Part shown: positions 13,999-15,934 of the stretch, piece by piece | Numbering within the stretch: position 1 is the first letter of the stretch | Layout of the letters: every line of letters begins with the position of its first letter | NCBI RefSeq assembly: GCF_016725325.1 | Contig: NZ_CP068083.1 | Coordinates: forward strand, 1,798,001-1,862,000 | Reading direction: 5' to 3' | DNA: 64,000 nt | From: Sphingobacterium spiritivorum | GTDB lineage: Bacteria > Bacteroidota > Bacteroidia > Sphingobacteriales > Sphingobacteriaceae | Translations under genes and position numbers: made by a program | Notes under the pieces: generated by a model | Told to the model about the DNA's origin: nothing | Databases searched by the model: none | Seen by the model: the letters and a program-made list of their open reading frames with translations, nothing else

Positions 13999-14026
13999 AA
14001 TTTACTGCTGTCTTTTGTGAGAAATG

Positions 14027-14060
14027 ATGCCGCTATACCTGAAAATAGCGGCATTTTTTG
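14027..14060 (+). terminator. Rho-independent terminator
   Basis: A perfect 10-bp stem (ATGCCGCTAT at 14027-14036 with ATAGCGGCAT at 14045-14054) followed by six Ts. It terminates the DUF4349 gene. Confidence 0.85.
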
Positions 14061-14186: not shown

Positions 14187-15878
14187 ATGAACAATCTAAA
14201 AACACTAATACTGGTGGGGGTGTTGGGCATGCTGTACGCTTGTCAGAAACCCAATGTAACGGATACACAATCCGATTCAAAACTTTCCAATACAAATACT
14301 GTTGCCAACCTCCCGCTGAATGCCGGTGGCTTTGTTTCGAATGCCAGGAACCTGAATATCATTTATTTTGTTCCGTCCGATAATCCGGCAGTAAGTGGTT
14401 ACAAAGAACGGTTGAGTGATCTGCTGATTCATTTTCAGGGATTTATTACAGCGGAGATGATCCGTAACGGATATGGAGGCAAAACTTTAGGACTTCCGTT
14501 GGACAGTACGACTAATCGTGTAAAAATTATAACAATACAGGGCGCGCAACCTCAGGCAAATTACCCATATAGTACAACAGCTGCGAATGCCATTATAAGT
14601 GAAATAAATGCGTATAGATCCACCCATCCGCAGGAATTTTCTACGACTTATCACAATCTGATTATTTTGCCTCAACGTACAGATGGCGGTGGGCAGCCTT
14701 TCTTCGGCCTTGGAAGAAATTGTTTTGCCCTCGATAACCCTAACATCAGTCTGGCGGCTATGCCAACTACGACATCGGCCTATATCGGCGGACTGTTCCA
14801 TGAGTTGGGACATGGATTAAACCTGCCTCACAACAAAGAGAAAGTCTCAGAAGCTCTGGTATTAGGAACCTCATTAATGGGAAGCGGAAATTCTACTTAT
14901 GGTAAGACCGGCAAAAAAACCTTTCTTTCAGAAGGAGATTGTGCTATATTATTTCGCAATGAACTGTTTCAGCCTTCTGTCGTTCCCGGACAATATGGAA
15001 GTCTGACTACAAATGCTTCTCTTACAGAAGCGTATTACAATACAGCAACATCAAAAATGGTTATTTCTGGAACATTTACCAGTAATCAGACATTGGCAAA
15101 CGTCCTTTACTACTTTGACCCTGTCAGTAGTCCGACGAATACAGATCATGACTCTCCTATGTGGGTAAATGCTCCTTCCGGAAATACATTTCATATAGAA
15201 ATGCCTGTAAGTGATTTACATTCCTTAGGCAATACATCCTATAATTTTACAATACGGTTGCTTGCTGAAAATGGGAACATCAGCGCTAAGGGATATTCTT
15301 TCAGCTTTGTAAACGGAATTCCAAAATTTGCAGGAAATACAACTACCGTAACACAAAACTGTTCTTACGGAGGATATAATATTACGCTTCCATATGGTTC
15401 TTATACCACAGCAGAGTTGATCGCGTTAGGAGTTGCAAATAATGATGTTTCCGGGATAAAAGTGCCGATGACCGGCGTTAGAGTGAGGTTATATGATCAG
15501 GACAATTTTGCCGGAACTCCGCTGCTCATGACTGCAAGTGCAGACTGTCTGGCAGGAAGTTATGGTTTTAATGATAAGACCAGTTCTGTCATTGTCGAGC
15601 CTTATGGTGGCGGGGGTACAGCCAAATTTTATAAACATTGCAGTTATGGAGGATATGAAGTCGAGCTGCCGGTCGGAGGATATACAACAGCAGAATTAGT
15701 CGCTAAAGGGATCTCAGATAATGATATTTCCGGAGCATTATTGTCTCCGAATATACGGGTAACACTTTACGATCAGGACTATTTTAAAGGCAGTAGTTAT
15801 GTATTGAATGCCTCTAACAGTTGTATTACATCATTTAATGATAAGGCATCTTCCGTGCTTATAGAATATGTGAATTAA
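14187..15878 (+). CDS. Metzincin-like zinc metalloprotease lipoprotein with two beta/gamma-crystallin repeats
   Basis: A 563-residue surface or periplasmic lipoprotein (lipobox YAC, Cys19). Residues 205-215 read HELGHGLNLPH, an HExxHxxxxxH zinc site (His205, Glu206, His209, His215) with Asn where metzincins usually have Gly; Met231 in GTSLMGSGN fits a Met-turn. A strand-rich linker covers about residues 265-385. Two tandem repeats at about 391-472 and 484-561 each contain C-SYGGY, YTTAEL, an NDxSG motif (418-423 and 511-516), LYDQD and an NDKxSS motif (462-467 and 551-556). The latter two match the double calcium-binding signature of microbial beta/gamma-crystallin domains. Probable secreted calcium-stabilised protease; substrate unknown. 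Bounded by terminators on both sides, so monocistronic. Confidence 0.75.
   Translation: MNNLKTLILVGVLGMLYACQKPNVTDTQSDSKLSNTNTVANLPLNAGGFVSNARNLNIIYFVPSDNPAVSGYKERLSDLLIHFQGFITAEMIRNGYGGKTLGLPLDSTTNRVKIITIQGAQPQANYPYSTTAANAIISEINAYRSTHPQEFSTTYHNLIILPQRTDGGGQPFFGLGRNCFALDNPNISLAAMPTTTSAYIGGLFHELGHGLNLPHNKEKVSEALVLGTSLMGSGNSTYGKTGKKTFLSEGDCAILFRNELFQPSVVPGQYGSLTTNASLTEAYYNTATSKMVISGTFTSNQTLANVLYYFDPVSSPTNTDHDSPMWVNAPSGNTFHIEMPVSDLHSLGNTSYNFTIRLLAENGNISAKGYSFSFVNGIPKFAGNTTTVTQNCSYGGYNITLPYGSYTTAELIALGVANNDVSGIKVPMTGVRVRLYDQDNFAGTPLLMTASADCLAGSYGFNDKTSSVIVEPYGGGGTAKFYKHCSYGGYEVELPVGGYTTAELVAKGISDNDISGALLSPNIRVTLYDQDYFKGSSYVLNASNSCITSFNDKASSVLIEYVN
15357..15869 (+). repeat. Tandem crystallin-like coding repeat
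   Basis: Two degenerate coding repeats, about 15357-15602 and 15636-15869, separated by a glycine-rich linker (PYGGGGTAK). The protein-level identity is high around SYGGY, YTTAEL and LYDQD while the DNA has diverged, indicating an old internal duplication. Confidence 0.7.
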
Positions 15879-15901: not shown

Positions 15902-15934
15902 AGGCTGCTTCGGAGACGGAGTAGCCTTTTTTTG
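15902..15934 (+). terminator. Rho-independent terminator
   Basis: AGGCTGCTTC at 15902-15911 pairs with GGAGTAGCCT at 15918-15927 (two G-T pairs), followed by a run of Ts. Ends the metalloprotease transcript. Confidence 0.8.

Follow-up and report, generated by a model that had tools for sequence, protein, structure and literature searches.

A predicted Sphingobacterium lipoprotein that joins an OgpA-type metzincin to two beta/gamma-crystallin domains is probably an O-glycopeptidase with altered glycan specificity

Introduction

Mucin-type glycosylation can be mapped with the help of O-glycopeptidases. One of them, OgpA (Amuc_1119) of Akkermansia muciniphila, PDB entry 6z2d, has 385 residues and ends after a beta-sandwich domain without crystallin domains (PMC7518263). 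According to the same paper, its glycan is contacted by Tyr116, Phe166, Lys198 (main chain), Trp199, Asn235, and Tyr236, and glycans with a branch at GalNAc O6 are blocked by its long alpha3 helix; the use of OgpA is limited, since this helix is thought to block both branched and 2,6-sialylated glycans (PMC7518263). A second enzyme, Amuc_1438 (8dek, 8df2), is strict for the single-GalNAc Tn antigen, has Tyr at the position of OgpA Trp199, and carries an NPCBM domain (PMC9513282).

The microbial beta/gamma-crystallin domains closest to those described here are from Protein S of Myxococcus xanthus (1prr, 1nps), which has two tandem domains, and from a Flavobacterium johnsoniae protein (3hzb). 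Both share the crystallin fold and the N/D-N/D-x-x-S motifs with the protein reported here, but no peptidase is fused to the crystallin domains in these solved entries. Our literature search brought up no evident published fusion of a crystallin domain with an O-glycopeptidase, in results where the query 'crystallin' also matched 'crystalline', and no evident report of OgpA relatives in the genera considered here or in PULs; such a search leaves absence from print unproven. Here we describe a Sphingobacterium spiritivorum gene that encodes such a fusion, and compare it with its relatives.

Results

The gene and the architecture of its product

The analysed stretch of DNA, 64,000 nucleotides long, is called the window, and all features given below lie on its plus strand. 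The open reading frame at 14187-15878 was confirmed as a single gene of 563 codons for amino acids, and it encodes a lipoprotein signal, an OgpA-type metzincin domain, a beta-sandwich, and two beta/gamma-crystallin domains. Residues 1-19 (14187-14243) form a signal peptide ending in the lipobox-like LYAC, and Cys19 was near-invariant across the 43-row family alignment, which supports the earlier proposal of a lipoprotein; the protein is thus predicted to be lipidated and exposed at the surface. The catalytic domain covers about residues 50-262 (14334-14972), with its boundary set by analogy with OgpA (PMC7518263), and is followed by the beta-sandwich, about residues 263-380 (14973-15326), placed by alignment of the model to OgpA over residues 39-384. 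Crystallin domain 1 (residues 384-472, 15336-15602) was delimited by sequence matches and the model, and domain 2 (residues 478-562, 15618-15872) by sequence matches and a separate model. The gene, with a GC content of 0.414, differs little in this respect from the window as a whole (0.407). Terminator-like hairpins lie upstream (14026-14055) and downstream (15902-15927) of the gene, which suggests a single-gene unit.

The protease part

No protease family scored above the cut-off for the 563-residue protein in Pfam or NCBIfam, and Pfam found the crystallin part only; the protease was therefore placed by a search of PDB sequences. With phmmer, residues 51-373 matched OgpA with an E-value of 5.4e-52, while Amuc_1438 (8dek) was a weaker match (E 1.5e-13). 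The full-length model, built on 43 family rows, had a mean pLDDT of 77.4; averaged over blocks of ten residues, pLDDT was 74-97 for the catalytic part and a moderate 52-79 for the crystallin part. It aligned to OgpA with a Z score of 36 at 2.7 A over 334 residues, covering both the catalytic and the beta-sandwich domains, and to Amuc_1438 with a Z score of 28.7 and a low identity (22%); ADAM and snake venom enzymes were among the more distant structural matches.

The zinc motif HELGHGLNLPH (residues 205-215, 14799-14831) is shared with OgpA, as is the Met-turn; in the window protein the latter reads GTSLMGSGNSTYG (residues 227-239, 14865-14903) and contains Met231 and the candidate GTSLMGSGN (227-235) named earlier. 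His205, Glu206, His209, His215, and Met231 are all kept in OgpA numbering, which coincides with that of the window protein at the zinc site. The earlier note had described a metzincin-type zinc protease on the strength of the zinc motif and the Met-turn; both the metzincin fold around HExxH and the zinc site were borne out. Its reading of the fold was thus right, but it was incomplete as to the kind of enzyme and missed the OgpA O-glycopeptidase family. It had also pointed to an Asn at the normally Gly position. Asn212 does stand where the classical motif (HExxHxxGxxH/D) has Gly, but this residue was found in 137 of 141 relatives and in OgpA itself; since the protein belongs to the OgpA family, the Asn is the family norm and not an oddity.

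The glycan pocket

Three of the five tested glycan-contact side chains of OgpA, at the positions of Tyr116, Phe166, and Asn235, are kept in the window protein, while Trp199 is replaced by Tyr and Tyr236 by Ser. The protein thus falls outside a core-1-specific OgpA subfamily defined by all five residues (Tyr116, Phe166, Trp199, Asn235, and Tyr236), and because two of the five differ, it cannot be taken to cleave core 1 in the way OgpA does. Counted in the alignment from the conserved Asp183 up to but excluding His205 (14733-14798), there are 22 residues, compared with 28 in OgpA, so that the window protein has six residues fewer before the zinc helix and the start of helix alpha3 is removed. 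With Amuc_1438 the protein shares the fold, the Tyr at the Trp199 position, and an identical GNSTYG turn. Read from the aligned residues, the predicted pocket is a mixture of OgpA-like and Amuc_1438-like features.

The crystallin domains

Residues 387-559 matched Protein S of Myxococcus (1prr) with an E-value of 4.4e-24. Domain 1 in the full-length model aligned to domain 1 of Protein S (1nps) with a Z score of 15.1. The single crystallin domains of relatives aligned to domain 2 but not to domain 1; modelling of the pair together was therefore dropped, and domain 2 was modelled alone. This second model had a pLDDT of 94.5, a TM score of 0.94 to 3hzb, and a Z score of 18.3 to 1nps. Both modelled domains show the two-Greek-key beta/gamma-crystallin fold, as would be expected from the two tandem crystallin repeats that had been proposed. 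Each of the two repeats is a complete domain, which brings the number of Greek-key motifs to four rather than two.

The calcium-binding motif of these domains is N/D-N/D-x-x-S/T-S (PMC3551895). By this definition, NDKTSS (residues 462-467, 15570-15587) and NDKASS (551-556, 15837-15854) are canonical, and by motif comparison NNDVSG (418-423, 15438-15455) and DNDISG (511-516, 15717-15734) have Gly in place of the last Ser. The crystallin domains may therefore be expected to bind calcium, and a dependence on calcium is plausible, given that the protein has four N/D-N/D-x-x-S motifs and that two of these are canonical in the strict sense. To see whether the domain pair arose independently in the window protein and in the two-domain relative L050, their domains were compared; identities were 54% for the two first domains and 51% for the two second domains, too near the 49% and 48% within the proteins to favour either history. 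Each crystallin domain of the window protein also has a Cys pair (Cys392 and Cys454, Cys485 and Cys546; 15360-15824), a possible disulfide; such pairs were present in two-domain members and missing from most single-domain members.

Tails of the family

We assembled 141 family proteins from 19 named contigs and from genus and family searches, in which 41 of 93 and 78 of 301 genomes, respectively, had a match. For L001-L062, the open reading frames taken were those that carry the zinc motif. Dropped before counting were L101, since it and L142 are one gene, incomplete or disrupted matches in genomes G037, G091, and G224, and a match in G451 that was found later. Tail classes were assigned by profiles made from members, and the name F5/8-type-C comes from Pfam matches in five of the seven examples scanned. 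An F5/8-type-C tail was present in 100 proteins, a crystallin tail in 36, neither in 5, and both in none. The fusion is thus no singleton. Among the crystallin-tailed proteins, 33 had one crystallin domain and three had two, namely those of the window, G081, and G238. The F5/8-tailed relatives from Bacteroidota share the homologous catalytic part and the lipoprotein signal but end in a discoidin-type tail.

The pocket changes went with the tail. A short pre-helix segment (24 residues or fewer) was found in all 36 crystallin-tailed members and in 4 of the 105 others, and the five glycan side chains were all kept in none of the 36, in 9 of the 100 F5/8-tailed proteins, and in 3 of the 5 others. 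After the trait columns had been taken out of the alignment, a tree was made by a quick method from 76 non-redundant rows; in it, the 14 crystallin rows lay on one side of a branch with an SH-aLRT support of 99, consistent with one change of tail. The crystallin rows are thus a single clade, and we saw it in one bacterial family (f1). In a class-wide sample of 395 genomes, 8 matched as carrying OgpA relatives, and no crystallin-tailed relative was seen outside f1. The data showed a swap of domains accompanied by changes of the pocket; because the crystallin-tailed members form one clade, the links between tail, pocket, and neighbouring genes may be one historical event. Values from Fisher tests take no account of kinship and are overstated.

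One of the 36, L065 (G057:C1:1799229-1800557), was kept despite a degenerate zinc motif (HEMIHGLTLLG), in which the third zinc ligand is missing from its normal distance, and its His215 in the count of 36 of 36 is an effect of the alignment. It has the longest end branch of the family tree and is possibly a pseudo-enzyme. Two other OgpA relatives, L130 and L133, have a tail that by eye looks like a ricin/QxW-type lectin repeat, which would be a third kind of tail.

Gene context

Genes flanking the relatives recur, and their Pfam names are GH29 fucosidase, GH20 hexosaminidase, M60 peptidase, SusC, SusD, and LacI regulator. We examined 20 kb around each of the 36 crystallin genes, except for L184 (14.0 kb) and L194 (13.5 kb). 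GH29 was present in 28 contexts, SusC in 28, SusD in 26, GH20 in 14, LacI in 7, and M60 in 6; GH29 occurred together with SusD in 24 of the 36. The fullest order, in L173, was SusC, SusD, crystallin-OgpA, M60, GH29, GH20, GH29, whereas L200 and L201 had SusC only. Around 15 of the 100 F5/8 genes, which were hand-picked and non-random, we found GH29 in none, SusC in 6, SusD in 5, GH20 in none, LacI in none, and M60 in 1. Twenty arbitrary windows from the same genomes, also hand-picked, gave GH29 0, SusC 3, SusD 2, GH20 1, LacI 0, and M60 0. This context in the relatives suggests a role in breaking down glycoproteins, and not in proteolysis at the surface in general.

Most relatives of the window gene thus lie in a glycan-utilisation locus, with adjacent SusC/SusD and glycosidases, but the window gene does not. 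None of the six families was found in the 20 kb around it, and its neighbours are housekeeping-like (MprF, an LLM monooxygenase, RlmN, ComF, and similar). None of the six was found near L182 (a near twin, in G081), L177 (which holds L050), or L178. All three two-crystallin members (window, G081, and G238, the last being L050) are therefore orphans outside fucosidase clusters. The genome of the window itself had matches to 10 GH29, 7 GH20, 6 M60, and 2 BNR_2 proteins. A GH101 search of this genome had no match, but its controls were equally silent, so that it does not demonstrate a lack of GH101; a PF00030 search of it gave zero matches even though the window gene scored above the cut-off in a direct scan, which marks that search as too insensitive to exclude further crystallin genes.

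Crystallin domains in other enzymes

From match lists we hand-picked 15 regions, a non-random set, with 20 open reading frames containing a crystallin domain, 19 of which were scanned by Pfam. A catalytic match above the cut-off was found in 10 of the 19: GH18/EndoS-like in five, an alginate lyase family in three, and a polysaccharide lyase and a pectate-lyase-like match in one each. Of the rest, L156 (to alginate lyase) and L145 (to PNGase F C-terminal) had matches below the cut-off, one had nothing but crystallin above it, and six had no assignment. The Fusarium GH29 fucosidase 4ni3 likewise has a crystallin domain at its end. Because crystallin domains end glycan-degrading enzymes, a targeting module is the likeliest role of the crystallin tail; judged from this position in enzymes, the tail may act as a carbohydrate-binding module. 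In L151 and L152 there are runs of adjacent GH18/EndoS-like proteins, each with a C-terminal crystallin domain.

Discussion

We consider it probable that the product of 14187-15878 is an OgpA-type O-glycopeptidase with altered glycan specificity, anchored by a lipid in the outer membrane, in which the crystallin pair serves in the manner of a carbohydrate-binding module, and that the gene helps the bacterium to digest sugar-coated proteins. What is known here is the OgpA-type O-glycopeptidase; what is new is the replacement of the F5/8 module by crystallin in such an enzyme. His205, His209, and His215 would coordinate zinc, Glu206 would act as the base, and the enzyme would bind a glycan and cleave the peptide bond adjoining a glycosylated Ser or Thr in a mucin-like glycoprotein. 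Given the changes of Trp199 to Tyr and of Tyr236 to Ser, and an alpha3 start shorter by six residues, O-glycans other than unbranched core 1 are probably accepted. The two Protein S-like domains, standing in place of the F5/8-type-C domain usual in relatives, would form a calcium-stabilised targeting module.

The proposal can be widened to the whole clade of Bacteroidota, in which F5/8 would have been swapped once for crystallin together with the shortened alpha3 and the changed pocket, the enzymes working with GH29, GH20, and M60 proteins on O-glycoproteins that are fucosylated and may be branched, and with the crystallin domain acting as a calcium-dependent carbohydrate-binding module as in EndoS-like enzymes and lyases. 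We hold this wider version tentatively, as possible but short of probable. If it is true, the widespread microbial beta/gamma-crystallin domain gains a function as an accessory module of enzymes that degrade glycans and glycoproteins. A natural group of enzymes with the start of alpha3 deleted is also a direct test of the idea that this helix blocks branched and 2,6-sialylated glycans.

Other explanations were weighed against the O-glycopeptidase. The protein could be a general calcium-dependent surface metzincin that cuts ordinary proteins, with the crystallin part only a calcium-dependent stabiliser or surface anchor; the metzincin fold, whose more distant structural matches include ADAM and snake venom enzymes, and the incompletely kept OgpA pocket would fit this, but by far the nearest relatives are glycan-dependent peptidases and the genes of relatives adjoin fucosidases and hexosaminidases, so we regard it as rather unlikely. 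About as little credit is due to an O-glycopeptidase for bacterial or fungal O-glycoproteins, such as the O-mannose-linked glycans of Bacteroidota, whose altered pocket fits a first sugar other than that of animal mucin-type glycans. The pocket is changed in all 36 crystallin-tailed members, and fucose can occur in Bacteroidota O-glycans; however, the GH20 genes in 14 of 36 neighbourhoods and the BNR_2 sialidase-type genes of the own genome fit animal glycans better, and the window protein retains the residues found in OgpA at Asn235 and Phe166.

The orphan position of the three two-domain members raises another alternative, in which the two-crystallin copy is a side branch that serves, for example, in remodelling or shielding of the cell surface and not in nutrition. 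Protein S of Myxococcus, which coats spores, would be a model for this, and the L153 protein, which has crystallin domains and no other recognised domain, points the same way. The fully kept zinc site and Met-turn and the many glycan-trimming genes elsewhere in the genome argue against it, and we think it improbable. The O-glycopeptidase thus remains the preferred explanation.

Two further observations were made on crystallin proteins and on the own genome. L153:1462-2628 encodes a signal-like start and four crystallin domains. At G000:C1:2469570-2475789, in the genome of the window, a BNR_2 sialidase-type match is flanked by two GH29 matches; this may be a cluster for host glycans at some distance from the window.
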